Part shown: positions 4,124-29,728 of the stretch, one piece after another
Position numbering within the stretch: the stretch's first letter is position 1
Layout of the letters: the number at the start of each line of letters is the position of its first letter
NCBI GenBank assembly: GCA_020061355.1
Contig: JAGUYK010000040.1
Location: 1 to 64,000, forward strand
Direction of reading: 5' to 3'
DNA: 64,000 nucleotides
Origin: Ignavibacteriales bacterium
GTDB lineage: Bacteria; Bacteroidota; Ignavibacteria; Ignavibacteriales; Melioribacteraceae
The notes under the pieces: model-generated
Seen by the model: the letters and a program-made list of their open reading frames with translations, nothing else
The model's database searches: none
Told to the model about the DNA's origin: nothing
Translations under genes and position numbers: made by a program

Positions 4124-4125
4124 AA

Positions 4126-6077: not shown

Positions 6078-6107
6078 CTATTGTAATTATTAAACTGTGA
6101 GATCTTT

Positions 6108-7190: not shown

Positions 7191-7214
7191 TTTATTTCAA
7201 GGAGAAAGAATAAA

Positions 7215-7454: not shown

Positions 7455-7455
7455 A

Positions 7456-7940: not shown

Positions 7941-7953
7941 TAGGATTAATAAT

Positions 7954-10967: not shown

Positions 10968-11458
10968 TGATCCAGAAAGAAAGATGCGCACGATTAACAG
11001 ATTATACCGTGGCAAAAACTACTGAAATACTTAACTCTAATTTTGCAAATTAATCTAAACCAACTTTTGTAACGAATCCTAACATTGCTCAGTGTCAAAC
11101 TTGTTATGGTGCAACTGTGTTTAATAATGTTAATACACAAATGGATTGTTTACAATGCCACGGATTTCCAAATAGTTCAATTACAAATATGGTCGCGGAC
11201 AGTACGAGTGTCCCGGTTGATATAAGCCTTTCACAGAATTATCCAAACCCGTTTAACCCAACAACAAATATTAAATATTCAATACCGAAGAGCTGCATTG
11301 TAAAAATTAATGTTTACGATGCGTTGGGTAAATTGGTCACAACCTTAATAAATGATAATAAATCGGCCTGAACTTATAAAGTAGAATTTAATGGTGGTAA
11401 CTTAACCACCGGAATTTTTTTCTATCAATTAAGCACACCGGAGTTCATTGCTACTAAA
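10968..11458 (+). pseudogene. Decayed 3' copy of the split-Soret-type cytochrome gene
   Basis: Read in one frame, this stretch matches residues from about 202 to the C-terminus of the protein encoded at 13571. Shared segments include ERCARLT, TEILN, FAN-KPTFVTNPNIAQC, FNNVNTQMDC-QCHGFP and DISLSQNYPNPFNPTT. It is broken by an in-frame TAA (where the intact copy has CAA Gln after FAN) and a TGA near 11369 (SA-stop-TYKVEFNGG). The first CxxCH is also degraded to QTCY. The sorting domain continues to FIATK and a TAA near 11458. The 5' two-thirds are missing. An 84-residue open frame at 11117-11371 is just the piece between the two stops. It lies right behind the oxidoreductase gene. Confidence 0.85.
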
Positions 11459-14698: not shown

Positions 14699-14725
14699 TT
14701 CTCTTCTTTATATTTATAATATAAT

Positions 14726-14741
14726 GCCGCCTTCGGGCGGC
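14726..14741 (+). terminator. Intrinsic terminator-like hairpin after cytochrome
   Basis: GCCGCC-TTCG-GGCGGC is a perfect 6-bp GC stem with a TTCG loop, followed by TTATTTAT, 28 bp after the cytochrome stop codon. It is a duplicate of the hairpin at 11520. Confidence 0.8.
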
Positions 14742-14859
14742 TTATTTATGATTATTAAGATAGCACAATTTGAAAAATTATCCCCAAGTTGTCGCAGAAT
14801 TTATTAGGTCATTAAAATAATTGACTGAAATAATCTTGAACATTAGTGCACGATAATTT

Positions 14860-14907
14860 TATAAAAAGTATTTCGGCAAAGTTGAAGAAGGAACGGTTAG
14901 AGTATAG
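14860..14907 (+). pseudogene. Remnant of the 3' end of a second ACR3 arsenite exporter gene
   Basis: Bases 14860-14907 read [15 protein letters not shown] followed by TAG. Twelve consecutive residues ([12 protein letters not shown]) are identical to the C-terminus of the intact ACR3 protein at 6108-7190, with near-identical nucleotides. A stop codon lies immediately upstream in this frame and nothing of the remaining transporter survives. It sits between the cytochrome terminator and the convergent sigma-54 activator 2. It shows that a second arsenic-type locus once existed here or was brought in by rearrangement. Confidence 0.8.
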
Positions 14908-14936
14908 GAGTTATGTCTGTAAGTCAAAAAACAACT

Positions 14937-16673
14937 TTAACCATACTTAATACTATATTTTTTCATTTTTCGCCAGAGAGTTGATGCATCAATTTTGAGT
15001 TCGTCCGCGGTTTGTCTTCTGTTGCCTTTATTTTTTTTAAGGATCGAAATTATAATTTCTTTTTCGGCTTCCTGTATATTGTTTGTGCTTATAGGCGGTT
15101 GCTCGCTTTTTTTATTCTCAATATTTGTCTTTAATCTTTTAGGTAAATCCTCAATCTGAATAGTATCCGTTCGGCAAAGTATAAAACAATGTTCAACCAC
15201 ATTTTCTAATTCCCTTATATTACCGGGCCAATTATATTCAATTAGAATATCGAAAGCGGAAGGAGAAAACTGTCTGATCTCTTTACCAAATCTATTATTG
15301 AAATGTTTTATGAAATGATTTGCTAATAGAGGCAGATCCTCTTTTCTATCCTTTAGTGCCGGTAGGTGAATGTTAATAACATTTATCCTATAGAAGAGAT
15401 CATCGCGAAAATTGCCTTTTAGTATTTCCTCATTCAAATTCTTATTTGTAGCTACAATAATACGTGCATCCATTTTTATTGATTTATTCCCTCCGACTCT
15501 TTCAAATACTCTCCTTTCAATGACTCTTAATAATTTTGTCTGAACAGCAATTGACAAATCGCCAATCTCATCTAGAAAAAGTGTGCCTCCCTGTGCAAGT
15601 TCAAACCGGCCGATTTTTGTTTTGATTGCACCGGTAAAAGCACCCATCTCATGTCCAAACAACTCGCTCTCAATCAGTGATTCCGAAAAGGCACTGCAAT
15701 TTACTGCTGCAAAAGGACCGGTGCGTTTAGCGCTATTAAGATGGATTGCCCTTGAAACAAGTTCTTTGCCGGTTCCGCTTTCGCCGGTTATTAATACAGT
15801 GCTATTTGTTTGGGAAACGCTTTCCAGGACGGTGATAATTTGATTCAACTCTTTACTTTTACCGATAATATTTTCATAACTGAATTTTTCTGATAAGTGT
15901 GATGACAAATTTTTTATTTCGGAAACATCTATAAACGTTTCAACCGCACCGGTCTTTTCGTTTTTGTTATTAATTAAAATGGCAGAGTTTACTCTAATGG
16001 GAATTCTCTTACCGCTTTTATTCATAATCTCTAATTCATTTCCGATCGTTGATTTTCCCTTGAGCATTGTTTGTTCCATATGGCATCCGTTCCGGCAGAG
16101 GGAAGATTGAAAAATATCCCAGCATTTTTTGCCAATGGCCTCGATTCCTTTATAACCAGTTATTTTTTCTGCCGATGTATTGAACGATGTTACATTCCAA
16201 TCGTGGTCTATAGTAAATGTACCTTCTATATTGCTGTTGAAGATAGCATCGAGCTTGTTTTTTTGATCAATCAATTCAAGTGTTCTTTCTTCAAGGTCCT
16301 CAGATAAGGAGAGCATTTCTTTAGTATCCCTGAATACAAAAACTACGCTCAGAACATCATTCTCTTTTGTGATGGGAGTAATTGAAGCAAGAACATTTTT
16401 TATGTTTCCTTTTTTATCCGTGATATTAATTGCAATGTTTGTAAAGACGCGGTTGTTTTCCAGCGACTCGGGAATATATTTCAAATCGTCTGTACAACCG
16501 CGAAATATAATAGAGCAGTCAATTCCTATAATACCGTCTTCATCATAACCTGTGATTCTCGACGCGGCTTCATTGAAAACAATAATTTTTAAGTCCTTTC
16601 CAATAACTGCGATTCCATCGGGTATTATAACTGCTTCTTTGTTCTTATCAATAATCTGCTGAACTTCTTTCAT
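14937..16673 (-). CDS. Sigma-54-dependent activator 2 (PAS-PAS-AAA+-HTH), divergent from the Mrp/ORP-like operon
   Basis: This 578-residue enhancer-binding protein has two PAS domains (about 15-118 and 138-250), a AAA+ domain (about 265-500) with Walker A GESGTGKE at 296-303 and a canonical GAFTGA loop at 343-348, and a C-terminal Fis-type helix-turn-helix (QTADELKIDASTLWRKMK). PAS1 carries Cys53 and Cys60; PAS2 carries Cys183, Cys192 and Cys196, the same C-x8-C-x3-C pattern as in activator 1. It is transcribed away from the Mrp operon. The gap between them holds four TTGCAA sites and a -24/-12 promoter, so it very probably activates that operon. The arrangement parallels the activator of the Desulfovibrio orange-protein operons. 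Confidence 0.9.
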   Translation of the reverse strand: MKEVQQIIDKNKEAVIIPDGIAVIGKDLKIIVFNEAASRITGYDEDGIIGIDCSIIFRGCTDDLKYIPESLENNRVFTNIAINITDKKGNIKNVLASITPITKENDVLSVVFVFRDTKEMLSLSEDLEERTLELIDQKNKLDAIFNSNIEGTFTIDHDWNVTSFNTSAEKITGYKGIEAIGKKCWDIFQSSLCRNGCHMEQTMLKGKSTIGNELEIMNKSGKRIPIRVNSAILINNKNEKTGAVETFIDVSEIKNLSSHLSEKFSYENIIGKSKELNQIITVLESVSQTNSTVLITGESGTGKELVSRAIHLNSAKRTGPFAAVNCSAFSESLIESELFGHEMGAFTGAIKTKIGRFELAQGGTLFLDEIGDLSIAVQTKLLRVIERRVFERVGGNKSIKMDARIIVATNKNLNEEILKGNFRDDLFYRINVINIHLPALKDRKEDLPLLANHFIKHFNNRFGKEIRQFSPSAFDILIEYNWPGNIRELENVVEHCFILCRTDTIQIEDLPKRLKTNIENKKSEQPPISTNNIQEAEKEIIISILKKNKGNRRQTADELKIDASTLWRKMKKYSIKYG

Positions 16674-16692
16674 ATTATACCTTTTTTAAGTA

Positions 16693-16758
16693 TTGCAAAG
16701 TTAGTAAAGTACATTGCAATTATGAAATATATTGCAAGAACACATTGCAACTGTGCAA
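16693..16758 (+). promoter_or_regulatory. Cluster of four TTGCAA activator sites
   Basis: The self-complementary hexamer TTGCAA occurs at 16693-16698, 16714-16719, 16732-16737 and 16745-16750. The last forms a larger perfect palindrome, TTGCA-ACTG-TGCAA (16745-16758). They lie 50-115 bp upstream of the -24/-12 element facing the Mrp gene. This is a typical enhancer position, presumably for the divergent activator. The half-site resembles that of the 12988-13057 sites but the spacing differs (N4 against N6). Confidence 0.75.
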
Positions 16759-16807
16759 CGGAGATGATATCACAGTCGCGAAAATTTAACAAAAATGCAT
16801 TTTTTAA

Positions 16808-16824
16808 TTGGCCCTATAATTGGA
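16808..16824 (+). promoter_or_regulatory. Sigma-54 (-24/-12) promoter of the Mrp/ORP-like operon
   Basis: TTGGCC at 16808-16813 and TTGGA at 16820-16824 give a GG-to-GG distance of 12 bp, matching sigma-54 spacing. The -24 half (TTGGC) is good. The -12 half has GG instead of GC, a single mismatch. The start site would be near 16834, leaving a short leader before the ATG at 16863. Confidence 0.65.
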
Positions 16825-16862
16825 TTACTATCAATTAAAATAATTACTGATAAGGAATATTA

Positions 16863-17693
16863 ATGGAAAATATTGATAAACAGAAGGCGATCGAAGATGA
16901 AACCAGAAGGATTAAAGAAAACGTCTCACGAATAAAGCATCGTATTGCAATCTTCAGTGGTAAAGGTGGAGTAGGAAAGACAACAGTCAGTGTTAACCTA
17001 GCTTATTCACTTCAGCTGGAAGGTCTAGAAACAGGTATTCTTGATGCCGACATAACCGGACCGAATGTTGCTAAAATGCTATCGATTGAAGGTGATTTAA
17101 TACTGCTGGATGAAAAAATTATCCCTTTTGAAAAGTATGGATTAAAGATCATTTCAATGGCAAATCTGCTTAAAAGCGGACAACCATTAATCTGGCGCGG
17201 ACCGATGCGTTCAAAAATAATTAATCAATTTCTTGCCGATGTTAAATGGATGGACCTCGATTTTTTAATTGCAGATCTTCCACCGGGTACAGGAGATGAG
17301 ATACTGACAATTGGACAGGAAATGAAACCGGACTACGCAATCATTGTAACCACACCGCAGGAAGTTTCTATTATTGATGCCGAACGGGCTATTAACATGG
17401 CAAAGCAATTACAAATTCCATCAATCGGTGTTGTTGAAAATATGGCCGGATTTGTTTGTCCTCATTGCAATGCGGTATTGGAAATTTTTGGTTCCGGCGG
17501 TGGAAAAAAAATGGCGGATGATTACGGCGTTCAGTTTTTAGGCTCTATACCAATTGATATTGATACCCGCATACTTAGCGATAAAGGGAAACTAATAGTA
17601 TTGGAAAAACCCGGATGCGAAGTAACAAACGCTTTTAAATCAATAGTTAAATTGATTGAAGAACACTACATAAACGAATTAAAAGAAAAATAA
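16863..17693 (+). CDS. Mrp/NBP35-family Fe-S carrier ATPase
   Basis: This 276-residue P-loop ATPase has the deviant Walker A GKGGVGKTT (33-41), DADITGPN (61-68), ADLPPGTGD (137-145) and the C-terminal CPHC (Cys199-Cys202). In Mrp/Nbp35 proteins that Cys pair holds a bridging cluster at the dimer interface. Such proteins assemble or carry metal-sulfur clusters. It is the first gene behind the sigma-54 promoter and is followed 14 bp later by the CGGC-domain gene. In Desulfovibrio a Mrp protein is part of the orange-protein complex, which fits the downstream NifX-like genes. Confidence 0.93.
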   Translation: MENIDKQKAIEDETRRIKENVSRIKHRIAIFSGKGGVGKTTVSVNLAYSLQLEGLETGILDADITGPNVAKMLSIEGDLILLDEKIIPFEKYGLKIISMANLLKSGQPLIWRGPMRSKIINQFLADVKWMDLDFLIADLPPGTGDEILTIGQEMKPDYAIIVTTPQEVSIIDAERAINMAKQLQIPSIGVVENMAGFVCPHCNAVLEIFGSGGGKKMADDYGVQFLGSIPIDIDTRILSDKGKLIVLEKPGCEVTNAFKSIVKLIEEHYINELKEK

Positions 17694-17707
17694 ATGGTAG
17701 AAATCTT

Positions 17708-18154
17708 ATGAACGATAAAATAAAAATCGGAATAATCATTTGTGATAGATACAAAAGCTGCGCCGGCGGAAAATGTTTCAGATCAATTAAGGAAAGAGCC
17801 GGTGCATTCGATATTTACAGGAATAAAGATGTTGAACTTGTTGGTTATACAACATGCGGCGGATGCCCGGGTGGTAACGTTGAATATGCCCCCGAAGAAA
17901 TGAAGAAAAACGGAGCAGAGGTTATTCACCTCGCAACCGGAATGGTGGTTGGTTATCCCCCGTGTCCTTATGTAGATCACTTTAAAAGATTTATTGAAGA
18001 TAAATATGGTTTGAAAGTTGTTATCGGCACGCATCCAATTCCCGAAAAATATTTTTTAACACATACAAACCTGGATACATGGAACACCAACGAATGGAAG
18101 GAATTCACAGTGCCAACTTTAAAGGAAAAAGAAGTGAGATTAGCTTATGATTAA
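17708..18154 (+). CDS. CGGC domain protein
   Basis: This 148-residue protein belongs to the CGGC domain family, named for its conserved Cys-Gly-Gly-Cys (here Cys50-Cys53, TTCGGCPGGN). Other conserved cysteines are Cys12, Cys18 and Cys23 (CDRYKSCAGGKC) and Cys86 (YPPCPY), with C-terminal GTHPIPEKYF. The cysteine content suggests metal-sulfur cluster or thiol chemistry; the function of the family is not established. It is encoded between the Mrp ATPase and a radical SAM protein in a tightly spaced operon. Confidence 0.88.
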   Translation: MNDKIKIGIIICDRYKSCAGGKCFRSIKERAGAFDIYRNKDVELVGYTTCGGCPGGNVEYAPEEMKKNGAEVIHLATGMVVGYPPCPYVDHFKRFIEDKYGLKVVIGTHPIPEKYFLTHTNLDTWNTNEWKEFTVPTLKEKEVRLAYD

Positions 18155-18175
18155 TAATATTATGGAAATTGATTA

Positions 18176-19114
18176 ATGCTTGTTTTTGGTCCAATACCGT
18201 CGCGAAGATTAGGAAGGAGTCTGGGGATAAATAATATTCCGCCAAAGGTATGCACATATTCTTGTATTTATTGTCAGGTTGGCTCAACTGATACTATGAC
18301 AATTGATAGGAAGGATTTTTATTCCACCGATCAAATTTATGATGAAGTATCAGAAAAGATTACAAGCATAAAAGGATCCGGAGAGAAAATTGATTATCTC
18401 ACTTTTGTGCCCGATGGAGAGCCGACCCTCGATATTAATCTCGGAAAAACAATTGAAAGACTAATGTCATTTGGAATAAAAATAGCGGTAATTACAAATG
18501 CATCTTTGATTTGGGATAAAGAAGTTCAAAACGATTTAAGGCAAGCTAATTGGGTTTCGGTTAAGCTTGATTCCGTTTACGAAGATATATGGAGAAAAAT
18601 CAATAGACCGCATGGTTCTCTCAATCTGCAGAAAATAATCCGGGGTATTGAGGAATTCGCATTTTCTTTTTGTGAGGAACTTGTAACGGAAACAATGGTT
18701 GTTAAAGGAGTAAATGACAGTATCGAATCACTCAGTAAAACAGCGCAGAAAATATGTGAAATTAATCCGCGTAAATCTTTTATCCTTATTCCATCACTTC
18801 CTCCGGCTGAAAAATCAGTTAAACCCCCATCGGAGGAAATATTAAATAGAGCCTTTCAAATTTACAGTAGCCTATTACCGGATGTTGAGCTTATTGTTTA
18901 TAGTGAGGGAACAGACTTCGGTTATTCTTCCGATGCTGAAAAAGAATTGTTGAGCATACTTGCAGTTCACCCTATGCGCAAAGATGCGGTGGATAATTTT
19001 TTGTCACGATCAAATTCGATTTGGGATTTGATTGATCATCTGGTTCTTATAAACAAATTGAAAGAAATAACATATTCGGGCACAACTTTTTTAATTAAAA
19101 ACATTACGAGGTGA
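18176..19114 (+). CDS. Radical SAM protein
   Basis: This 312-residue radical SAM enzyme has a Cys-x3-Cys-x2-Cys motif near residues 24-31 (CTYSCIYCQ) that binds the SAM-cleaving [4Fe-4S] cluster, preceded by the family hallmark FGPIPSRRLGRSLGIN. FVPDGEPTLD and VSVKLDS are also typical of this subgroup. The reaction is unknown; members are often near Mrp and NifX-like genes. The last third (from about 250) resembles a small winged-helix tail (LLSILAVHPMRKDAVDNFL). Its position between CGGC and CBM48 genes suggests a shared pathway. Confidence 0.9.
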   Translation: MLVFGPIPSRRLGRSLGINNIPPKVCTYSCIYCQVGSTDTMTIDRKDFYSTDQIYDEVSEKITSIKGSGEKIDYLTFVPDGEPTLDINLGKTIERLMSFGIKIAVITNASLIWDKEVQNDLRQANWVSVKLDSVYEDIWRKINRPHGSLNLQKIIRGIEEFAFSFCEELVTETMVVKGVNDSIESLSKTAQKICEINPRKSFILIPSLPPAEKSVKPPSEEILNRAFQIYSSLLPDVELIVYSEGTDFGYSSDAEKELLSILAVHPMRKDAVDNFLSRSNSIWDLIDHLVLINKLKEITYSGTTFLIKNITR

Positions 19115-19117
19115 GTC

Positions 19118-19429
19118 ATGGCTATTATAAAAAAATATTCAAATGACAAAAGCATCTGTCATGTTACATTTATTCTTCCAAAAGAAATTAGTGAAAATTT
19201 CGAACAAGTCAATTTAGTCGGCGATTTCAATAATTGGGACATTCATAAAGATAAATTCTCACATAAAAGTTCCGACGGTTCGTTTAACGCCGAATTTGAT
19301 TTGGATGCCGGTAAAGAATACCAATTCAGATATTTAGGCAACGGAGAAACTTGGCTCAATGAACCGGAAGCAGATAGACAAGTTTTAACTCCTTTTGGTG
19401 ATTCTGAAAATTCTGTTTTAGTAGTATGA
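19118..19429 (+). CDS. CBM48/isoamylase early-set domain protein
   Basis: This small 103-residue protein is essentially one glycogen-binding immunoglobulin-like domain (CBM48 / AMPK-beta type). Markers are VTFILP, VNLVGDFNNWD (near 31-41), the core EFDLDAGKEYQFRYLGNGETWLNEPEAD (described by its ends EFDLDAG and EPEAD) and FGDSENSVLVV. There is no signal peptide or catalytic domain. It starts 3 bp after the radical SAM gene. Why a carbohydrate-binding domain sits in a metal-cofactor operon is unclear; it may act as a protein-protein module. Confidence 0.85.
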   Translation: MAIIKKYSNDKSICHVTFILPKEISENFEQVNLVGDFNNWDIHKDKFSHKSSDGSFNAEFDLDAGKEYQFRYLGNGETWLNEPEADRQVLTPFGDSENSVLVV

Positions 19430-19506
19430 TAGGAATAAACAAAATATACCTTCTAAGGTATTCAACTAATTAAACAAAACGATATTCATAAAAATAGGAG
19501 GCATTT

Positions 19507-19761
19507 ATGCCAAACTTTGATAAAACTGGTCCGAAAGGACAAGGAGCAATGACCGGAAGAAAAAGAGGTCGTTGCAAAGATACTCAAGCAACACAAATTG
19601 AAAAAACTTCTGACCAAGCTGCAGAGAACAAGGAAGTAGTTTACGGACTCGGTCGTGGCGGAAAACCGCGCGGCGGTGGTGGATTAGGAAATCGTTCTGG
19701 TGGTGGCGGAAAAGGTAACGGTCAAGGCAGAGGTCGCGGAAGAGGATTCGGTGGAAAATAA
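19507..19761 (+). CDS. DUF5320 Gly/Arg-rich protein
   Basis: This 84-residue protein has the DUF5320 N-terminal motif MPNFDKTGPKGQGAMTGRKR and a long low-complexity Gly/Arg tail (RGGKPRGGGGLG ... GRGRGRGFGGK). The function is unknown, but the family regularly accompanies NifX-like and MinD/ferredoxin genes in anaerobes. A GGAGG site (taggaggc) precedes the ATG, one of the strongest in the window, suggesting abundant product. The tail might bind nucleic acid or a polyanionic metal-sulfide cluster; this is speculation. The next gene starts immediately after its stop. Confidence 0.85.
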   Translation: MPNFDKTGPKGQGAMTGRKRGRCKDTQATQIEKTSDQAAENKEVVYGLGRGGKPRGGGGLGNRSGGGGKGNGQGRGRGRGFGGK

Positions 19762-20208
19762 TTGCCAAACATAAAGAAGATAAAAATAGCCGTAGCAATC
19801 GATAAACCGGAAAGGTTATCACCTCTTTCCGAAGTCTTCGGCAGGAGTAATTTTTTTCTGATCTATGATTTATTGGAAGATTCGGAGGATGTTTTAACTA
19901 ATCCTTTCGCAAAAGAATTAGGTGGCGCGGGAATTCAGTCGGCGAGATATCTGATCGAAAACAACGTTGATGTTTTAATAGTTAAAAAGATCGGAACAAA
20001 TCCTTTCCGGTTTCTAACATCTGCAGATATAGAGGTTTATCAATGCCAAGGAACAAACGCAACCGAAGCAATACGGCTTTTCACAGAAGGTAAATTGAGT
20101 TTAATAGAAAACATGAGAGGAGATATTGTTTCCGGAAGAATGCGAAAAAGACAGGGCAGATATTTTACAGACATAAAATTTATCAACAGTAAAAAAGGAA
20201 AAATATGA
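19762..20208 (+). CDS. NifX/NifB-like dinitrogenase cofactor-domain protein 1
   Basis: This 148-residue protein has the dinitrogenase iron-molybdenum cofactor fold (KIAVAIDKPERLSPLSEVFGRSNFFLIYDL, marked by VFGRSNFF), followed by AKELGGAGIQSARYLIENNVDVLI and a basic C-terminal tail (RMRKRQGRY). It appears to use a TTG start directly after the previous stop (TAATTG) and ends in an ATGA overlap with the next gene. Proteins of this fold bind metal-sulfide cofactors; in Desulfovibrio the orange protein (ORP), which carries a Mo-Cu-sulfide cluster, is one. The cofactor here is unknown. Confidence 0.85.
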   Translation: MPNIKKIKIAVAIDKPERLSPLSEVFGRSNFFLIYDLLEDSEDVLTNPFAKELGGAGIQSARYLIENNVDVLIVKKIGTNPFRFLTSADIEVYQCQGTNATEAIRLFTEGKLSLIENMRGDIVSGRMRKRQGRYFTDIKFINSKKGKI

Positions 20209-20588
20209 ATCACAGATTAGCAATAGCAATTGAAGAAATCGGTACTGAAGAAAGAGTTGCTGAACATTTTGGAAGATGCTCAAAATTCTATGTGTGCGAA
20301 CTTGACGAACAAAAAAAAGTATTGAAAACAGAAACTTTTTTTAATCCGTTAGCCGGTGAGCACAGCGGCGCTTGTCAATTGCCGGGTTTTGTTAAACAGT
20401 TCAATGTAAACACAATAATTGCCGGTGGGATGGGACAAAAAGCAGTTTCAAATTTTCTTTCGTTTGAAATTGATGTAATTACTGCACCCGGACTTCTTTA
20501 TGAAGATGCTTTGAATCGTTTCATTCAAGGAAAGCTGCTCGGTTACGAAGCGTGCAAGCACGATCATGGTCACGGTCATAATTGTTAA
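20205..20588 (+). CDS. NifX/NifB-like dinitrogenase cofactor-domain protein 2
   Basis: This 127-residue protein has the same fold as its neighbour: AIAIEEIGTEERVAEHFGRCSKFYV at the start, HSGACQLPGFVKQFNVNTIIAGGMGQKAV in the middle, and a metal-binding tail KHDHGHGHNC rich in His and Cys. Cys42 (GRCSKFYVC region) and the tail give several soft-metal ligands. It overlaps the upstream gene by 4 bp (ATGA) and precedes a MinD/ferredoxin gene by 12 bp. It is the best candidate here for an orange-protein-like metal cluster carrier, based on fold and context. Confidence 0.87.
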   Translation: MNHRLAIAIEEIGTEERVAEHFGRCSKFYVCELDEQKKVLKTETFFNPLAGEHSGACQLPGFVKQFNVNTIIAGGMGQKAVSNFLSFEIDVITAPGLLYEDALNRFIQGKLLGYEACKHDHGHGHNC

Positions 20589-20600
20589 TAGAGGTTTGAC

Positions 20601-21452
20601 TTGATAATATCTATTGCATCGGGCAAAGGCGGAACTGGCAAAACCACCGTTGCGGCAAGTCTCGCTTCCGTTATTCCCGAAAGTGTTTATATCGACTGCG
20701 ACGTTGAAGAACCGAACGGGCATCTGCTTCTTAAACCAGAATTTATTTCGGAAGAGAGCGCTAAGAAACTTCTTCCTCAAATCGATCAGGAAAAATGTAC
20801 GTTCTGCGGTAAATGTGTTGAGGTTTGCGAATTCAACGCGTTGATAAATTTAAAATTTGAAATCGTCCTTTTCGATGAAATGTGTCACGGTTGCGGGGCT
20901 TGTATCTATTTTTGTCCTTCAAAGGTAATAACAGAAAGAGCGAAAGAAATTGGAGTTGTAAGAGTTGGAATTACAAGCGCTAAAATTTTTTTCGCGGACG
21001 GAGTATTAAACATCGGCGAAGTTGCCGCTACGCCGTTAATCAAGGAAGTGAAGAAAAATATTATTGAAGGAAAAATAAATATACTCGATTCTCCGCCCGG
21101 CACTTCATGCTGTATGGTGGAAACAGTAAAGGATTCCGATTTCTGCATACTTGTTACCGAATCAACTCCTTTCGGACTGAATGATCTCAAACTTGCTATC
21201 GATGTGTTAAAAACGATAGGTGTTTCATTTGGAGTTGTTATAAATAAATACGATCCGTCCTTCACAGAGATGGAAAATTATCTGAACGAAAACAGTATCG
21301 AAATTCTTCTTAAAATTCCTTTCGAAAGAAGGTATGCAGAATCGTATTCGGAAGGGATACTACCTTTAGATAAATATCCTGAGTTGAAAAATGCTTTTCG
21401 TGTGCTTCATAAACGGATTCTGGAAAAAGTGGAAATTGTAAATGCCGGATAA
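20601..21452 (+). CDS. MinD-family ATPase with inserted 2x[4Fe-4S] ferredoxin domain 1
   Basis: This 283-residue P-loop ATPase has deviant Walker A SGKGGTGKTT near residues 7-16 and an inserted ferredoxin domain. Its eight cysteines are at 66, 69, 72, 76 (CTFCGKCVEVC) and 95, 98, 101, 105 (CHGCGACIYFC). The ATPase fold resumes with DSPPGTSCC and VINKYD. It uses a TTG start and overlaps the next, paralogous gene by 11 bp. Paired ATPases of this type are a hallmark of the Desulfovibrio orange-protein complex operons. They probably couple ATP hydrolysis to electron or cluster transfer. Confidence 0.92.
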   Translation: MIISIASGKGGTGKTTVAASLASVIPESVYIDCDVEEPNGHLLLKPEFISEESAKKLLPQIDQEKCTFCGKCVEVCEFNALINLKFEIVLFDEMCHGCGACIYFCPSKVITERAKEIGVVRVGITSAKIFFADGVLNIGEVAATPLIKEVKKNIIEGKINILDSPPGTSCCMVETVKDSDFCILVTESTPFGLNDLKLAIDVLKTIGVSFGVVINKYDPSFTEMENYLNENSIEILLKIPFERRYAESYSEGILPLDKYPELKNAFRVLHKRILEKVEIVNAG

Positions 21453-22323
21453 ATCGTATAAACAAATTGTAATACTTAGCGGCAAAGGCGGAACCGGCAA
21501 AACAACGTTGTCCGCTGCGTTTGCGGGTTTGATAAAGAAAAAAGTAGTAATTGATTGTGATGTTGACGCGGCAAATCTTCATCTTGTTCTAAAACCGGAA
21601 ATAATTAATAGCTATGATTTCTCTGGTGGCAAAAAAGCAATTATCGACCCCGACAAATGTGTGGAGTGCGGAACGTGCGAGACTGTCTGCCGTTTTGATG
21701 CAATTAACAATTTTACGATAGATCAATTAAGCTGCGAAGGATGCGGATTCTGTTTTCGCGTTTGTTCTTCGGATGCGATCAAATTCGATCCCTCAAAATC
21801 AGGTTCATACTTTGAATGTGAACTGCCCGATGGATCAAAATTTTTCTACGCAAAACTTTTTTCGGGCGATGGGAATTCCGGCAAACTTGTTAGTGAAATA
21901 AAAAGAAAAGCCCTCGAAAATATTTCGTCGGATATTGAATGGGTCATTGTTGATGGACCCCCGGGAATAGGATGTCCGGTAAACGCAAGTGTTGCGGTAG
22001 CGGATTATGTAGTTATTGTTACGGAACCAACCGTATCCGGCATCCACGATCTAAAACGGTTAATCGAATTATTGAAAACATTTAAAATCAGATCCGGTAT
22101 TGTAATCAACAAATACGATTTGAACGAAACTATAGCAACACAAATATTTAACTATGCGGAAAACGAAAAGACTCCTATCATCGGATCAATCCCTTTCGAT
22201 CCGGAATTTATGAAAGCTCTTATCAATGGCGAAAATGTTTTGGAGGTTAATAAAAATATCCAGGAAGAAATTCTTACCATTTTGAGACAATTAGAATTAC
22301 AAGTAGAAATATCAGTTAATTAA
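21442..22323 (+). CDS. MinD-family ATPase with inserted 2x[4Fe-4S] ferredoxin domain 2
   Basis: This 293-residue paralogue of the preceding protein has Walker A SGKGGTGKTT (13-22). Cysteines are at 73, 76, 79, 83 (CVECGTCETVC) and 98, 101, 104, 108 (CEGCGFCFRVC), with DGPPGIGCPV and TEPTVSGIHD in the ATPase core. The 11-bp overlap with the upstream gene indicates coupled translation, so a heterodimer is likely. It is followed by a third NifX-like gene. Role by analogy: reductive assembly or transfer of a metal-sulfur cofactor. Confidence 0.92.
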   Translation: MPDKSYKQIVILSGKGGTGKTTLSAAFAGLIKKKVVIDCDVDAANLHLVLKPEIINSYDFSGGKKAIIDPDKCVECGTCETVCRFDAINNFTIDQLSCEGCGFCFRVCSSDAIKFDPSKSGSYFECELPDGSKFFYAKLFSGDGNSGKLVSEIKRKALENISSDIEWVIVDGPPGIGCPVNASVAVADYVVIVTEPTVSGIHDLKRLIELLKTFKIRSGIVINKYDLNETIATQIFNYAENEKTPIIGSIPFDPEFMKALINGENVLEVNKNIQEEILTILRQLELQVEISVN

Positions 22324-22337
22324 TAAAAAGGTATAAT

Positions 22338-22658
22338 ATGAAAATTGCAGTGACATCAACCGGCGGATCGATGGATGCGCTTGTAAGTGAACAGTTCGGA
22401 CGTTGCCAATATTTTTTAATTGTTGATCCCGAAACCATGAAGTTCGAGGCTGTCTCGAATCTTGGAGAACAAATGCAAAACGGTGCAGGTCCTAAAGCCG
22501 CAGAGTTAATAATTAATAAGGGCGCTGAGATATTACTTACAGGTCGCGTCGGCGATAAAGCAGAAGAAGCCCTCAAGAAAAGCGGAATAAAAATAGTTGA
22601 CGGTTACAAAGGCACGATAAAAGTTAAAGATGCAGTTAACAGTTATTTGTCAAAATAA
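22338..22658 (+). CDS. NifX/NifB-like dinitrogenase cofactor-domain protein 3
   Basis: This is a minimal, 106-residue version of the dinitrogenase cofactor fold: KIAVTSTGGSMDALVSEQFG at the start, GRCQYFLIVD with a conserved Cys, NGAGPKAAELIINKGAEILLTGRVG in the middle and VKDAVNSYLSK at the end. This is the form most often called NifB/NifX family or orange protein. A GTATAATATG start is spaced 14 bp after the ATPase. Three such proteins in one operon suggest separate steps such as scaffold, carrier and storage. Confidence 0.9.
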   Translation: MKIAVTSTGGSMDALVSEQFGRCQYFLIVDPETMKFEAVSNLGEQMQNGAGPKAAELIINKGAEILLTGRVGDKAEEALKKSGIKIVDGYKGTIKVKDAVNSYLSK

Positions 22659-22672
22659 AAAGGAGTTGAAAA

Positions 22673-23218
22673 TTGTACGTTCCAACAAAAATATTTTTTA
22701 CTAAAGGTGTGGGAAGACACAAGGATTATTTAAGCTCATTTGAAGCTGCTTTGAGAAACGCCGGAATTGAAAAGTGCAATCTTGTTACAGTTAGTAGTAT
22801 TTATCCCCCGGGATGTAAACGGATAGTGAAACAAGATGGATTAAGAGAAATCAGTGCCGGTCAAATTACATTTGCAGTAATGGCCCGTAATGCCACCAAT
22901 GAACCTAACCGCTTAATAGCATCATCAATTGGTGTTGCAATTCCTGCCGATGGTCACCAATACGGATACCTTTCGGAATATCATCCGTTTGGTGTAAAAG
23001 AGAAAATAGCCGGCGATTACGCGGAAGATTTAGCCGCTCAAATGTTAGCTACTACACTGGGTGTTGAATTCGATACCGAGGCTGACTGGAATGAACGCGA
23101 GCAAGTATTTAAAATGTCGGGTAAAATTGTTAAAACATTTAACGTTACCCAAACTGCCGAAGGAGATAAGAAAGGGTTATGGACAACGGTATTAACGGCA
23201 GCGATTCTTTTACCATAG
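22673..23218 (+). CDS. Pyruvoyl-dependent arginine decarboxylase
   Basis: This 181-residue proenzyme of the PvlArgDC family decarboxylates arginine to agmatine. The self-cleavage site is visible as [11 protein letters not shown], with cleavage expected between Ser41 and Ser42 to form the pyruvoyl group. Other family blocks are [20 protein letters not shown] and [10 protein letters not shown]. It starts with TTG behind a good AAGGAG site, 14 bp after the third NifX-like gene. It is probably read from the same transcript, although polyamine synthesis has no obvious link to metal cofactors. The assignment is secure. Confidence 0.92.
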
Positions 23219-23272
23219 TAAATTGAAAGAAAGAATAGTTGTAAAAAAGTACTAAAACAAGAAAAAGTAGAA

Positions 23273-23995
23273 ATGAATCCAAATGTTCGATTGACCGTTC
23301 TGTTCGATAATAATCCTATGCTGGAAGAATTACAAACAGGATGGGGATTTGCCTGTTTGATTGAGACAGGAAGAAACAAAATTCTATTTGATACCGGTGA
23401 TAACGGAAAGATTCTTTTAGATAATATGAAAAAACTTAATATTGATCCGGGTAGTATTGACACTCTCTTTTTATCCCACTTCCATCATGATCATACCGGT
23501 GGACTTAAAGATTTTCTCCGGATGAATTCGAAAGTGAAAATTTATTTCCCGCAATCATTTCCGGCCGAAATAATTGACTCAATAGAAAATTCCGGGGCAC
23601 TACCATTTCCTATTACAGATTTTTCTGAAATTTTACCGGATATATTCACTACGGGTGAATTAAAATGTGAAATACCTGAACAATCGCTTATTATTCGTAC
23701 GCGTGAAGGAATTATTATCATTTCAGGTTGTGCACACCCGGGGATCGTGAATATCTTGGAAAAAGTGAAAAGTCATTTTCAAGGTGATACAATTTATCTT
23801 GCGATTGGAGGATCTCATTTACACCGGTTAAACGATGACCAAATAAACGACGTCATTCAAAGAATATATGATATGGATCTATTGAATATTGCACCGACAC
23901 ATTGCACTGGTACCTTAGCCCGTAAAATGTTTAAAGAAGTTTTTGATATAAATTATATTGAGGTTGGGGTCGGTAAAGAAATAAAAATTAAATAA
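23273..23995 (+). CDS. Metallo-beta-lactamase-fold hydrolase
   Basis: This 240-residue MBL-fold protein has the metal motif SHFHHDH (His69, His71, Asp73, His74), ILFDTGDNG upstream and SGCAHPGIVNI and PTHCTGT downstream. The pattern is that of the subgroup annotated as 7,8-dihydropterin-6-methyl-4-(beta-D-ribofuranosyl)-aminobenzene-5'-phosphate synthase, although that activity is established only in methanogens. The natural substrate here is unknown. It follows the arginine decarboxylase by 54 bp and is probably in the same transcription unit. Confidence 0.85.
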   Translation: MNPNVRLTVLFDNNPMLEELQTGWGFACLIETGRNKILFDTGDNGKILLDNMKKLNIDPGSIDTLFLSHFHHDHTGGLKDFLRMNSKVKIYFPQSFPAEIIDSIENSGALPFPITDFSEILPDIFTTGELKCEIPEQSLIIRTREGIIIISGCAHPGIVNILEKVKSHFQGDTIYLAIGGSHLHRLNDDQINDVIQRIYDMDLLNIAPTHCTGTLARKMFKEVFDINYIEVGVGKEIKIK

Positions 23996-24063
23996 TTTAG
24001 ATTCCTTTTCCAGCCGGAGGCATCAAATAAGGCAATTATTGGAAATTACCTGAACGGAATAAT

Positions 24064-24903
24064 ATGGAAATTTTCTTAAATGTATTAAAAGAATCAATAA
24101 AGGTAACTCTATTTGTTTTAGCGATGATGGTTGCTGTTGACTTTATTAATGTCAAAACAAAAGGCAGGTTGGAATCGATATTACAAACCGGTAATAGGTG
24201 GAAACAGTATATTGTCGCTTCCTTACTTGGTGCGGCACCCGGGTGTCTCGGGTCTTTTGCCGGAGTTTCTTTATATATGCACGGTATGATAAGTTTCGGT
24301 GCGCTTACCGGTCTGATGCTCGCAACTGCCGGCGACGAGCAGTTTATAATGCTTGCAATGTTTCCTAATACTGCGTTGTTAATGTTTGGTATACTTTTTT
24401 TACTTGGAATTGTAACCGGATTTTTAACCGATTTCATTGTAAAGAAATTCAATATAAAAACATGTACTGATTGTGAATTCAAACAATATCACCCGGGGCA
24501 GGAGGGATACCGACACTATCTAAGAGATCACATCTGGAAACACATTGTCAAAGGGCATTTGATTAGAATATTTGCCTGGACTTTTGGTGCATTAGTTTTC
24601 GTTGAATATACAATGAACTATATAGATTTTGAAAGTGTTACATCGGAATACACATTATTATTATTAGTTACCGGTGCGCTAATAGGTATTATACCGGAAT
24701 CCGGTCCGCACTTGATCTTCGTAATGTTGTTTGCAAAAGGATTGATTCCCTTTTCGGTTTTGTTTACAAGTTCGGTTGTTCAAGACGGGCACGGAATGCT
24801 GCCCATGCTTTCTTATTCGGTAAAAGATTCAATACGTATAAAAATGTTTAATCTAGGCTTTGGGCTGACGATAGGTTTAATTATTTATCTCATAGGTTAT
24901 TGA
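24064..24903 (+). CDS. Putative 10-TM heavy-metal exporter (ArsP_2 family)
   Basis: This 279-residue polytopic membrane protein matches the family annotated as putative arsenic or manganese exporter (ArsP_2). Markers are ASLLGAAPGCLGSFAGVSLY and GLMLATAGDEQFIMLAMFP in the first half. A cytoplasmic loop holds the metal-binding elements CTDCEFKQYHPGQE and H-rich LRDHIWKHIVKGH. The mirrored GALIGIIPESGPHLIFVMLF and SSVVQDGHGMLPML are in the second half. The inverted repeat of two halves is typical of this fold. Its stop overlaps the start of the next gene (TGATG). Substrate is unknown; context allows arsenic, molybdenum, tungsten or another metal. Confidence 0.8.
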   Translation: MEIFLNVLKESIKVTLFVLAMMVAVDFINVKTKGRLESILQTGNRWKQYIVASLLGAAPGCLGSFAGVSLYMHGMISFGALTGLMLATAGDEQFIMLAMFPNTALLMFGILFLLGIVTGFLTDFIVKKFNIKTCTDCEFKQYHPGQEGYRHYLRDHIWKHIVKGHLIRIFAWTFGALVFVEYTMNYIDFESVTSEYTLLLLVTGALIGIIPESGPHLIFVMLFAKGLIPFSVLFTSSVVQDGHGMLPMLSYSVKDSIRIKMFNLGFGLTIGLIIYLIGY

Positions 24904-25499
24904 TGATTGATTTGAACTCCATTCCTAAATCAGAAAATGATCAGCTTCTTAATAAATGGGGCTATGATATGCTGGAAGAGTATTCTCGATTTATTTCATC
25001 AGCAGATTTCAGTCCTGATAATTTGATACTTGATATTGCTACAGGAACCGGAAGAGCTGTATCGATATTATCCCGAATGGGGTATAATGTTATTACCGGA
25101 GATTCCAGTTTTGAAATTAAGCACGAAAGTGAAAAAAGAATAACTGAAGAACATATCAGTAAGGTAAGGTTTATTAAATTGAACCTGGAAAAAATCCCTT
25201 TTTCCGATAAGTCAATTGGAAATATAGTTTGCTTAAATACAATTCACGAACTTGAAAATCCAATTACATGTTTAAATGAAATTGTTAGAGTTTATTCGGG
25301 GAAAGGAAAATTTGTAATTGCAGATTTTAATGACAAGGGTTATGATGTTATGGATAAGCTTCATACTAAACGGTATGGTAAACTTCACAGACGTGGTAAC
25401 ATCTCACAAAAACAGTTGCGGAATTTCATACATGAATATTATTGTCACATTACAGAAATTAATACAAAGTTAAATACCGGATATATTATAACGGACTAA
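24903..25499 (+). CDS. Class I SAM-dependent methyltransferase
   Basis: This protein of about 198 residues has a Rossmann-type SAM-binding motif LILDIATGTGRAVSIL near residue 42, followed by the acidic motif and VCLNTIHELENP (motif IV position). The ATG at 24903 overlaps the upstream stop as TGATG; a TTG three bases earlier is open too but less likely. Substrate is unknown. Translational coupling to the putative metal exporter suggests a metalloid or small-molecule substrate, but nothing in the sequence shows this. Confidence 0.8.
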   Translation: MIDLNSIPKSENDQLLNKWGYDMLEEYSRFISSADFSPDNLILDIATGTGRAVSILSRMGYNVITGDSSFEIKHESEKRITEEHISKVRFIKLNLEKIPFSDKSIGNIVCLNTIHELENPITCLNEIVRVYSGKGKFVIADFNDKGYDVMDKLHTKRYGKLHRRGNISQKQLRNFIHEYYCHITEINTKLNTGYIITD

Positions 25500-25509
25500 G
25501 AATAGTAAA

Positions 25510-27882
25510 ATGAATAAAAGAATATTTCTAATTCTCTTACTTTTAACAACTAATTCCCTGATCGCTCAGAATCCGACTTTAAAAGGTAGAATAATTGACG
25601 CGAAATTTGATTCGGCCGTACAGGGAGCAACAATTTTTATCTCCTACCGTTTTATGACCTATGCAAACCTTGATGGCTATTATTCTATTAAAAATCTCCC
25701 GGAAGGTAAATATCAGATAAAAATATCGCGACTTGGTTACAAACCGATTTCCGATTCAATTATAATTAACTCTCAAGTGATAACAAAAGATTTTATTTTA
25801 GATCCTTCGCCCATTGAACTTGATGAAGTAATTGTAAGTACGGATAGAACAGATAAGTTCTTACGTAATTCACAATACTCCGAACTGCTGCTCGGTAAAG
25901 AGGCAATTCAAAATAAACCCTTTCAATCATTATCGGATATTTTAAAGGATGAGCCCGGAGTATCACTTTTACGCGATGGAATATGGGGGACCGAAGTGAG
26001 CATACGCGGTTTGAACCGTGAAAATATTGTTACTCTTATTGATGGGAATAGAATAGCGACTTCCACAGATATTGCAGCGAGGTTGTCTTTATTTAACTTG
26101 AATGACATTGAACGTATTGAAGTAATTAAAGGCGCGTCATCTTCCGTTTATGGATCAGGAGCTACCGGAGGGATAGTAAATATTATAACCAAATCCCCTT
26201 TGTTGTACGATAAATTTACCATAGGCGGAAATATTTCAGCTGGCTTTGGCTCTGTTAATAATTTATCCGCATTCTCGGCATCACTTTTTAGCGGAAGTAC
26301 TTTCTGGTCGTCTAAATTTTCCGGTTCTTATAGGAAAGCTAAAAATATTCAAACTCCTGCCGGTGAATTGAAAAACAGTCAGTTTGAAGATTATAGTTTT
26401 TCAGGAGCATTGAACTTATATCCATTTGATAATCAAACACTTAAATTAGACTACCAGTTATTCAAAGCGAATGATGTTGGAATTCCCGGCGCCTCAATTT
26501 TCCCGAACAATGCCGATGTACGTTATCCCGACGAGAAAAGAGAACTCTTCTCTACCGGATACGAAATACAAAATATTTCGAAAATTTTTTATAAACTTTC
26601 CGTAAAATATTCATATCAATTAATTGGGCGTAACGTTGAGAATATTCCGCATACAGTTCAGAATATTCCGGCAACCGGAATCACTCCGGCAAGACGCGTG
26701 AGCGTGCTAAAAATTACACCTGGAGCCAGTCATAAAAACAATAATTTACAACTTCATGGTAATTTTCTATTAGCTGATAATAATAACCTTATCCTGGGTA
26801 TCGATTACTGGGATCGAAGTTACACCGGCAGTCGCGAAAAATATCAACTGATTGAAGTGTTAAATACAGAAGGAACTGTTATAAATAGAACAAATAAGAT
26901 AATAGGGGAAAAACCATTGCCCGATTCCAAGTATAAAAGCTTTGGAATCTTTGCGCAGAATGATGCAGAATTACTTAAAGATAAATTATTGCTATCGGTG
27001 GGGTTGCGCTTTGATGGAATTAGTATTTCAGGCGAAACAACTTTTAATCCGATTTATGAGATTGTAAATGGGGTTACGAATTATTCACCACCCGGACAAA
27101 CAGTGATATGGAAGGAAATAGATGAAAATGAAAATTCGTATAGCGGGAACATCGGGTTTAAGTATTCGGTGAACTCGAATCTGGATTTTACTTTAGGTGC
27201 CGGGTTATCATTCCGTTCACCTTCGCTCGAAGAAAGATTCCAATATATTGATCAGGGAAGTTTCGTTCGTATTGGTGATCCCGACTTAAAGCCCGAAAGT
27301 GGAAAATCCATTGATCTTGGTATTCGATATTATTCGTCTCATTTAAAAATAATCTCAAGTGTTTTTTTCAATTACTTTAATGATCTCGTTTCGGAAATAC
27401 CGGGAATATTCGAAGAAAGAAATGCTTATGTTAAAACAAATATAGGTGAAGCCCGTTTATATGGATTTGATTTCCGTGCTGATTATAATTTTTATGATGA
27501 TTATATTTTTTATGTAACAGGTTCATACGTTAAGGGAGATGATTTAATGATGGGGGGGCACCTACCAGAGATTCCCCCATTGAATGGAAATATCGGGATA
27601 AGATTCGGATTATTTGAAAAATTAAATGCCGTTATCTCCTCAACAATTTTTACCGCACAGAAAAATATTTCCATGGGGGAATTAAATACTCCGGGTTACA
27701 TGCTTTTCAATTTTTCCATAAGCACCGATGTTATTAAACTCTCAAGTTTTAGGTTACGGTTTTATACCGGAATAGAAAATCTCTTTAATAAAGAATACAG
27801 GAATCATTTATCAACGACGAGAGGAAATATTACCACTGAACCGGGCAGGAATTTCTTTCTTAAATTAATTTCAGATTTTTAA
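25510..27882 (+). CDS. TonB-dependent outer-membrane receptor
   Basis: This 790-residue outer-membrane receptor has a signal peptide (1-19, ending LIAQ) and a carboxypeptidase-regulatory-like beta-sandwich (about 22-100, LKGRIIDAKFDSAVQGATI). The plug domain follows (about 118-230, marked by IEVIKGASSSVYGSGATGGIVNII) and then a beta-barrel ending in aromatic KLISDF. It is a FecA/CirA-like receptor without a SusD partner, so a siderophore, metal complex or cofactor is more likely than a polysaccharide. It follows the methyltransferase by 10 bp. This ties it to the putative metal exporter and possibly to the whole sigma-54 operon. Confidence 0.92.
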   Translation: MNKRIFLILLLLTTNSLIAQNPTLKGRIIDAKFDSAVQGATIFISYRFMTYANLDGYYSIKNLPEGKYQIKISRLGYKPISDSIIINSQVITKDFILDPSPIELDEVIVSTDRTDKFLRNSQYSELLLGKEAIQNKPFQSLSDILKDEPGVSLLRDGIWGTEVSIRGLNRENIVTLIDGNRIATSTDIAARLSLFNLNDIERIEVIKGASSSVYGSGATGGIVNIITKSPLLYDKFTIGGNISAGFGSVNNLSAFSASLFSGSTFWSSKFSGSYRKAKNIQTPAGELKNSQFEDYSFSGALNLYPFDNQTLKLDYQLFKANDVGIPGASIFPNNADVRYPDEKRELFSTGYEIQNISKIFYKLSVKYSYQLIGRNVENIPHTVQNIPATGITPARRVSVLKITPGASHKNNNLQLHGNFLLADNNNLILGIDYWDRSYTGSREKYQLIEVLNTEGTVINRTNKIIGEKPLPDSKYKSFGIFAQNDAELLKDKLLLSVGLRFDGISISGETTFNPIYEIVNGVTNYSPPGQTVIWKEIDENENSYSGNIGFKYSVNSNLDFTLGAGLSFRSPSLEERFQYIDQGSFVRIGDPDLKPESGKSIDLGIRYYSSHLKIISSVFFNYFNDLVSEIPGIFEERNAYVKTNIGEARLYGFDFRADYNFYDDYIFYVTGSYVKGDDLMMGGHLPEIPPLNGNIGIRFGLFEKLNAVISSTIFTAQKNISMGELNTPGYMLFNFSISTDVIKLSSFRLRFYTGIENLFNKEYRNHLSTTRGNITTEPGRNFFLKLISDF

Positions 27883-27919
27883 GTAATTTTGATCTTAATT
27901 ATTCACGACTCCGGTTAAC

Positions 27920-28798
27920 ATGACCTGGTTCCTGATTGCGTTACTATCATCTTTTCTTTCGGCATTTGCTGCAATTACGCAGAAGAAAGTTTTATTTAAC
28001 CGGAGTCCGCTCGAATTTTCTTATCTTCTTTCAATTGTAAATCTTCTCTTTTCAATTCCTTTTTTTCTTTTCATTGATTATGGGACAATCAATTCTTTTA
28101 ACCTGACAATCCTTTTTATAAAATCTTTAATTGGTGTCGGTGCATTTTTATGTGTTATGACAGCTTTAAAAAATTTACAAATCAGTAATGCGCTCCCTTT
28201 GCTTGCTCTGACCCCGGGATTTGTAGCAGTGTTTGCATTTATTTTCCTCGGAGAGGCGTTGAAACTGGAAGAGGTAATCGGACTAATATCATTAATAGCC
28301 GGCACCTATATACTCGAGAGCAAAAATCTAAAAGAAATACTTTTCCCTTTAAATGTCTTTTTCAAATCTAAGTATCATCAGTACATTCTAATGGCGTTAT
28401 TGTTATTTACCGCATCTTCTGTAATGGACAAAATATTACTCATAAAATTAAACCTCACTCCGGTTTCATTGACTGCATTTCAGCATTTGTTCTTTGCTTT
28501 CTTTTTTGCAATTATCTTTTTTGGGGTAAGGGGGACAAAAGAAAAAGGGTTGTCAATCATTAATAAAAAAGATTTGGGCTGGATCGCTTTGATTTCGGTG
28601 CTGACAATCGGTTACCGGTTTACTCAGGTTATAGCTATTAGTCTTGCCTCGGTAGCTTTAACACTTGCAGTAAAGCGAACTTCTGTATTATGGGCAACAA
28701 TCATTGGCGGAAAGATATTTAAAGATTCGAACATGCTGAAAAAAATAATAGCTGTTTTATTCATTCTCCTTGGTGCCATTCTGATTCTAAGAGATTAA
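27920..28798 (+). CDS. EamA/DMT-family permease
   Basis: This 292-residue inner-membrane transporter of the drug/metabolite superfamily has about ten transmembrane helices in two EamA repeats. The first ends with the hallmark FIFLGEALKLEEVIGLISLIAGTYIL; the second ends with VLFILLGAILILRD. It is 37 bp downstream of the TonB receptor and the last gene of the plus-strand run. Its stop overlaps that of the convergent methyltransferase gene by 3-4 bp. Substrate unknown. Confidence 0.85.
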   Translation: MTWFLIALLSSFLSAFAAITQKKVLFNRSPLEFSYLLSIVNLLFSIPFFLFIDYGTINSFNLTILFIKSLIGVGAFLCVMTALKNLQISNALPLLALTPGFVAVFAFIFLGEALKLEEVIGLISLIAGTYILESKNLKEILFPLNVFFKSKYHQYILMALLLFTASSVMDKILLIKLNLTPVSLTAFQHLFFAFFFAIIFFGVRGTKEKGLSIINKKDLGWIALISVLTIGYRFTQVIAISLASVALTLAVKRTSVLWATIIGGKIFKDSNMLKKIIAVLFILLGAILILRD

Positions 28799-29424: not shown

Positions 29425-29728
29425 AGTGTGTTTTATTTCGCATTGACAATAAGATGAATAAATCCTCAGTTGGATTCCTGGCTTATTCGATTAATTTGAA
29501 TTTAGTAATTTATTATATACTAAATGTGCACAATTAAAATCAAAAAGCCGATCTGTTTCTTTTGAGGAGCATTATTTTCTTATATTTGCACATGCATTTT
29601 AGATCGAAATATAACTCCAGTCCAATTTAGAATAAAAAGGGTTCGCTGAAATCCTTTTTCTCTGTTTATTCCGATAGTTCTGCCGCCCAAATAGATTAAT
29701 CAATTTTAATGATAGGAAAAGTGAAAAA
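29425..29728. promoter_or_regulatory. Intergenic region with a possible promoter for release factor 3
   Basis: This 304-bp gap separates divergent genes. A Bacteroidota-like element is visible: TTG at 29562-29564 and TATATTTG at 29581-29588. The 16-bp spacing is shorter than the usual 19-21. A start near 29595 would give a leader of about 130 nt. No small gene or structured RNA was recognised. Confidence 0.35.

Follow-up and report, generated by a model that had tools for sequence, protein, structure and literature searches.

We analysed a 64,000-nucleotide stretch of DNA from an Ignavibacteriales bacterium (hereafter the window; positions 1 to 64,000 of contig JAGUYK010000040.1, GenBank assembly GCA_020061355.1), in which a tightly packed rightward operon starts at position 16863, divergently from the gene of a sigma-54 activator. 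Judging from sequence comparisons, we consider it moderately probable that this operon encodes an orange protein (ORP)-type system for handling metal-sulfur clusters, with a known core in what appears to be a new variant that has extra partners in this lineage. The ORP system has been described from Desulfovibrio, and its function is presented as unsettled in the available portions of PMC6345978 and PMC3897727 (a table row of PMC4641369 served as a further source). The original prediction had likened the gene plan to the Desulfovibrio ORP operons, and this likeness was borne out by a close ORP match of one NifX-like protein, by a second NifX-like protein that matches the second half of MrpORP, by a MinD pair and by the divergent activator. 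Each gene position that it named carries an intact open reading frame with family profile support.

The Mrp, NifX and MinD genes of the core all lie on the forward strand. Mrp (16863..17693; PF10609, 3.2e-92) is a P-loop ATPase and a member of the Mrp/NBP35 family of Fe-S carriers (ApbC, Cfd1/Nbp35); it has the CXXC motif (CPHC), lacks a C-terminal Di-Nase domain and, with 276 amino acids and 306 bits against an MrpORP model whose cut-off is 450, is not a fused MrpORP. The NifX-like proteins encoded at 19762..20208 (NifX1), 20205..20588 (NifX2) and 22338..22658 (NifX3) are the only three PF02579 matches in the whole genome (1.9e-19 to 2.4e-17). NifX1 has 1eo1 (MTH1175) as its best PDB match (1.1e-17), NifX2 has 1o13 (2.1e-12, with ORP not listed at 0.01), and the Orp8-like NifX3 has the ORP of D. 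gigas (2wfb; E 3.6e-18). NifX2 aligns with positions 268-365 of the 365-position MrpORP model (58.8 bits), and its HFGRC motif and C-terminal Cys/His tail, both seen in the alignment, resemble the CXHFGHCE and CDH motifs given for the MrpORP Di-Nase domain in the available text of PMC6345978. Because Mrp is without this domain and NifX2 matches the second half of MrpORP, we read the two as a putative split MrpORP.

The MinD pair follows, MinD1 at 20601..21452 and MinD2 at 21442..22323, which profiles and alignments (and a structural model for MinD2) identify as P-loop ATPases with a deviant Walker A motif and an inserted 2x[4Fe-4S] ferredoxin. All eight cysteines of the insert are invariant in the 8 MinD1 and 9 MinD2 rows compared. 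A further cysteine lies in switch II. Across 80 core loci (described below) and the window, with proteins <200 amino acids left out, Cys170 of MinD1 is a cysteine in 69/70 rows and Cys178 of MinD2 in 76/77, the remaining row being a gap in each case, whereas Mrp has Asp at the equivalent position in 27/28 rows. When aligned by HHalign with six NifH-family proteins from three genomes, the MinD motifs DSPPGTSC and DGPPGIGC fall on DVLGDVVC of NifH, whose cysteine we take to be a ligand of the bridging [4Fe-4S] cluster. A Foldseek search with the MinD2 model (pLDDT 90.9) returned MinD first, then FleN, ATPase-type HypB and Cfd1, with NifH further down. Unlike NifH, the pair has the ferredoxin insert and consists of two distinct subunits.

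Set against the Desulfovibrio system, the MinD/ferredoxin pair would correspond to Orp3/Orp4, NifX3 to Orp8, Mrp plus NifX2 to parts of Orp9, and the adjacent activator to DVU2106, a mapping that was made through family models, 2wfb and the papers' descriptions, with no direct comparison to D. vulgaris sequences. There are also differences. Here a single operon runs rightward and the activator is the only leftward gene, whereas two divergent operons are found in Desulfovibrio; MrpORP is split into two genes; and the window adds the NifX-type gene at 19762 together with genes for CGGC, radical SAM, CBM48, DUF5320, arginine decarboxylase (ArgDC), MBL-fold and ArsP_2 proteins.

To place the core among other organisms, an alignment of MinD2 was scanned against the genomes of 84,980 species, which gave at least 593 stretches. 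Confirmation succeeded for 343, and the 80 best of these were retained as core loci (L076-L155). These loci span 3.3-20.9 kb, with 11 of them <6 kb, and the neighbour counts are thus lower bounds. Selected by MinD2, the loci contain MinD1 in 78 cases, directly upstream of MinD2 within 1 kb in 75. Any NifX gene was found in 71/80 (NifX3-type 53, other NifX-type 59), Mrp in 28, DUF134 in 25, DUF89 in 14, a NifU-type scaffold in 13, DUF5320 in 12 and a sigma-54 activator in 12, although this last count may include other sigma-54 activators. Their titles include Bacteroidales, Desulfobacteraceae, Omnitrophota, Chloroflexota, Phycisphaerales, Bacillota, Spirochaetales and Methanosarcinaceae; the nearest titled one, L076 ('Ignavibacteria bacterium'), is 56% identical. 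The core is an apparent ORP-type system of anaerobes, spread across many phyla but the subject of few studies. Further repeated neighbours in the 80 loci were a pyridine nucleotide-disulfide reductase (11), a Zn_ribbon_8 protein that we take to be of the FmdB type (8), and Fur-like (7) and TrmO-like (5) proteins, the latter two named by eye. Outside this set, two relatives (L014, 8532-9899; L013, 7598-8959) have Mrp and CGGC separated by a gene for an octaheme cytochrome of the tetrathionate-reductase family, and the L014 copy scores 607 bits (cut-off 375).

Among 58 relative genomes, which we take to be of Ignavibacteria type and which include the window's own genome (G000), the system is patchy and its periphery variable. 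MinD2 matches occurred at E 0.001 in 42/58 genomes, with full-length copies (41-100% identity) adjoining MinD1 in nine and short pieces in the rest. Orthologues of the activator, at 61-100% identity, were likewise found in 9/58 genomes, G000 included. Around these nine activators we found NifX2 in seven cases (one a fragment), radical SAM in six, the MinD pair in five, Mrp in five (one partial), DUF5320 in five, CGGC in four, DUF89 in three, CBM48 in two, and ArgDC in three plus one on another contig.

The activator (EBP2; 14937..16673, reverse strand) is a sigma-54 enhancer-binding protein (Sigma54_activat, 6.1e-69) with the GAFTGA motif, two PAS domains and a PAS cysteine triad (C184-x8-C193-x3-C197). 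Each cysteine of the triad was kept in 16/19 aligned activators, the three without it being distant ones. The gap between activator and operon (16674..16862) holds an exact TTGCA-N4-TGCAA palindrome at 16745-16758, the only exact copy in the whole window, with a one-mismatch copy 31 bp away at 16714 and nine TTGCA/TGCAA half sites. Ten activator gaps of the nine genomes contain seven exact sites against a composition-shuffle mean of 0.0005, a comparison that overstates the significance because the palindrome was picked by eye from the same gaps. The gaps are also richer in half sites, by a factor of about 7, than the loci around them (28.5 vs 4.0 per kb). Two gaps of G042 carry the palindrome, one before DUF89-ArgDC and one before DUF5320. 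In G048 and G023 a more distant activator (50-51%) directly precedes a NifX-type gene, and in G006 a single gene stands between the two. Distant homologues also occur with formate-tetrahydrofolate-ligase-like genes (named by eye) and a NifX-type gene in L197, L198 and L199; in L197 a ferredoxin-like gene is preceded by a pair of TTGCA-N4-TGCAA sites with a spacing of 30 bp. The window itself encodes a second PAS/sigma-54 activator at 11641-12972, which has a PAS cysteine motif and a GAFTDA variant.

Next to NifX3 lies the gene of a pyruvoyl-dependent ArgDC (22673..23218; PF01862, 1.3e-60), one of two copies in the genome. It is a full-length match to its family and keeps, in an alignment of 11 sequences, the VSSI motif, presumably the cleavage site of the enzyme. 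The family is common in the relatives (52/58 genomes), yet two copies are found in four of them only (G000, G023, G042 and G056). In G000, G042 and G056 one copy lies in an activator-linked locus with EBP2 and NifX-type genes. The second copy of G023 sits ~250 bp from a contig end beside 4HBT, TonB and EamA genes like those downstream in the window, and would belong to such an operon. The operon copies of G000, G023 and G056 share 84-88% identity among themselves and 71-80% with the five other aligned copies, and they form a clade (0.991) in the tree of the same 11 sequences, from which six further loci without sequence were left out. ArgDC also occurs in 3/80 core loci (L097 and L099, from Phycisphaerales and Sedimentisphaerales, and L076 at a contig end). 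The 56 copies in the 219 Mb of the 58 genomes would give an expectation of 0.28 in 1.10 Mb, against the three seen; the comparison is rough, and L076 is a near relative. The second ArgDC is, as a predicted paralogue, tied to the ORP-type locus in relatives. It differs from the usual enzyme in being carried by an operon, where it neighbours NifX/ORP genes and, in relatives, a sigma-54 activator.

Three further genes raised in the original prediction lie between Mrp and NifX1, which are a CGGC-domain protein (17708..18154; PF08821, 3.1e-31; AlphaFold2 model pLDDT 94.7), a radical SAM protein with CTYSCIYC (18176..19114; PF04055, 8.1e-15) and a solo CBM48/isoamylase-N domain protein (19118..19429; PF02922, 1.2e-5, 25.9 bits vs a cut-off of 22.4). 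These three, together with ArgDC, could be hitchhikers that play no role in the core function of a cluster put together recently. In line with this, the neighbour of CGGC in G016, G031 and G052 is another radical SAM (31-37% identity), the stretches fetched there contain no MinD gene, and CBM48 is scattered in the relatives. As a control, the 80 core loci were compared with 32 other proteins of the window, which include AOR and split-Soret (both described below), TonB, EamA and the second activator; the low-complexity filter was on here (it was off in the core-family counts). CGGC homologues recurred in 7/80 loci and radical SAM homologues in 16/80 (17/80 in a second count; a second type in two, either type in 18), whereas 24/32 control proteins matched none and 5/32 matched one locus. 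The remaining three were a methyltransferase (5/80), the second activator (12/80) and another methyltransferase (2/80). Moreover, the second ArgDC copies adjoin genes of the system in all four two-copy genomes, although in one of them these are downstream genes only. For the four proteins taken together we therefore regard the hitchhiker explanation as unlikely.

CBM48 alone is the case in which that explanation is favoured. It has 28 stand-alone matches in the 58 genomes, two of them in core loci, and was found in 0/80 of the wider core set; the gene is probably incidental. With regard to CGGC, homologues were found in 9/58 genomes and lie outside such loci in five (G011, G016, G030, G031 and G052). 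In the 14 aligned sequences Cys12, Cys18, Cys50, Cys86 and His109 are invariant, and Cys23 and Cys53 nearly so. The scattering in relatives that was named beforehand as evidence against an extended system was thus seen for CBM48 and partly for CGGC. Of the extension by four protein types that had been proposed, the recurring CGGC and radical SAM, which may be accessory partners common to the core in other phyla, and the tied ArgDC paralogue stand, while CBM48 drops out.

The boundaries of the unit also needed correction. That the run is tightly packed was right, with intergenic distances of -11 to +77 bp from Mrp to ArgDC, but the gene of a Gly-rich DUF5320 protein (19507..19761; PF17253, 3.3e-7) had been missed, and an end at 23218 is too early. 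The same strand continues, with gaps of -4 to +68 bp, through an MBL-fold hydrolase (23273..23995; a partner in 18/80 core loci), an ArsP_2 metal(loid) exporter-like protein (24064..24903; NF037962, 130 bits, cut-off 100), a SAM methyltransferase (24900..25499; family profiles; 6/80 core loci, also L055 and L058), and a TonB receptor (25510) and EamA permease (27920) that extend over 25510..28798 and were recognised by family profiles. From Mrp (16863) to EamA (28798) all genes thus share one orientation, with gaps of -11 to +77 bp. Terminator-like matches in 14600-29800 were not above shuffles (13 vs a mean of 11.8); the best of them, a two-way stem (14726-14741), separates the operon side from the split-Soret/AOR side. 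Two relatives also have TonB and EamA together, G042 following ArsP_2 and the methyltransferase and G023 (C30) next to the second ArgDC, yet they occur in 0/80 core loci, and we therefore place them as outer and lineage-specific at best.

ArsP_2 bears on another explanation, in which the operon would belong to an arsenic/metalloid detoxification island. It follows NifX3 in two relatives (G045 and G042; loci L054 and L055) and was found near the core in 3/80 loci. The 5' end of the window encodes an arsenite methyltransferase (346 bits, cut-off 263) and ACR3 (466 bits, cut-off 283) beside ArsC-like, ArsP_1 and YeeE-type genes. When eight of the nine upstream genes (1077-8655; rhodanese left out) were compared with the core loci, however, the methyltransferase alone matched (5/80), and it belongs to a common family. 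ArsP_2 is absent from 77/80 core loci (loci that are often short) and is the one exporter of the arsenic-island kind seen with the core elsewhere. We find this explanation decidedly unlikely. An arsenic/sulfur island proper occupies the first 8.7 kb of the window, at 1077-8655, and comprises the arsenite methyltransferase, an ArsP_1 permease, an ArsC-like phosphatase, two half-size YeeE-type transporters, rhodanese, ACR3, thioredoxin and a CcdA-like protein.

The MinD pair could alternatively be a positioning or cell-division complex, a function already proposed for the ORP complex of D. vulgaris, with the metal proteins as its redox sensor. The Foldseek search placed MinD nearest in fold, and the available portions of PMC6345978 and PMC3897727 describe a putative involvement of the ORP proteins of D. 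vulgaris in cell division or in positioning of the septum. Against this, the repeated neighbours of the pair are metal and Fe-S genes, namely Mrp, the NifU-type scaffold and NifX. To our knowledge, division MinD has neither 2x[4Fe-4S] inserts nor a switch-II cysteine. A positioning function appears highly unlikely.

Delivery of a molybdenum or tungsten cofactor to the neighbouring aldehyde ferredoxin oxidoreductase (AOR), a link drawn in the original prediction, is very improbable: the AOR gene (8750-10933) does sit 4 kb beyond the activator, and the available text of PMC6345978 cites a Mo-Cu sulfide cluster in ORP-type proteins, but AOR (4/58 genomes) and the MinD pair (9/58) co-occur in G000 only, AOR adjoins 1/80 core loci (L086), and the terminator-like stem (14726-14741), the second activator (11641) and a split-Soret cytochrome gene separate it from the operon. 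In the stretches fetched around the other three AOR genes (one with 385 bases on one side) we found no neighbours of the window's AOR and no core genes, and only weak TonB matches. The split-Soret cytochrome c-like protein (13571-14698) scores 161 bits, under a cut-off of 400, and has a C-terminal type IX secretion system (T9SS) sorting domain, an unusual fusion; a fragment with the same kind of C-terminus was noted by eye at 11117-11371.

Returning to metal-sulfur cluster handling as the reading we prefer, the operon may work as follows. The activator would sense redox or cluster status via its PAS cysteine triad and turn the operon on through TTGCA-N4-TGCAA as a putative site. MinD1 and MinD2 would form a NifH-like heterodimer, with the inserted [4Fe-4S] ferredoxins supplying electrons and the two switch-II cysteines holding or passing a metal-sulfur unit at the dimer interface during ATP turnover. 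The split MrpORP of Mrp and NifX2 would provide Fe-S clusters, and a transfer of Fe-S from MrpORP to Orp3/Orp4 is reported in the available text of PMC6345978. NifX3/ORP and NifX1 would serve as acceptors, stores or carriers of the product, CGGC and radical SAM may act as accessory partners, and ArsP_2 may export surplus metal(loid).

Several results weigh against this scheme and it needs to be interpreted with caution. NifH has two cluster-ligand cysteines per subunit, whereas the sole invariant cysteine outside the ferredoxin insert is C170 (8 MinD1 rows) or C178 (9 MinD2 rows), and the second cysteine of the NifH type is not there; the heterodimer is proposed from the adjacency of the two genes only. 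The palindrome is exact in 6/9 genomes, with near-matches in G015 and G021 and none in G027, and it also arises by chance, being present in 30 places in G042. Three exact copies were found in the 80 core loci, none of them in an activator gap. The sigma-54 element GG-N10-GC was not found in the window gap (a GG-N10-GG look-alike was noted by eye), which lowers our confidence, and it is present in only 4/10 gaps (G015, G021, G007 and G027, the strands of G027 not being separated). The activator has no linked MinD pair in three genomes, and may therefore have another primary target: G021 carries its MinD pair, which is of a different type (48%), on a separate contig, G056 has the activator with DUF89, NifX2 and ArgDC, and G027 showed no core gene within the 14 kb fetched around the activator (the G015 locus ends at a contig end after CGGC). 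The clade formed by the ArgDC copies of G000, G023 and G056 does not include the operon copy of G042. Lastly, the [2Fe-2S] protein Orp5 was not recognised among the window genes in family scans, in which no Orp5 sequence was searched.

A more far-reaching version has, in our view, only a slim chance of being correct. MinD1-MinD2 would be an anaerobe-wide NifH-like heterodimer that builds or gates an interface metal-sulfur unit, wired in this order via a TTGCA-N4-TGCAA regulon to a dedicated ArgDC paralogue whose product (agmatine or another amine) this process would require, for instance to act as a counter-ion or a ligand in an anionic thiometallate store.

Overall, the 80 loci sampled extend the ORP core to numerous groups of Bacteria and Archaea. 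The conserved switch-II cysteine makes a NifH-like mechanism directly testable, with one point mutation per subunit, and the palindrome, as a putative operator, predicts members of a regulon. The ArgDC paralogue tied to the locus would connect amine production with metal-sulfur handling.

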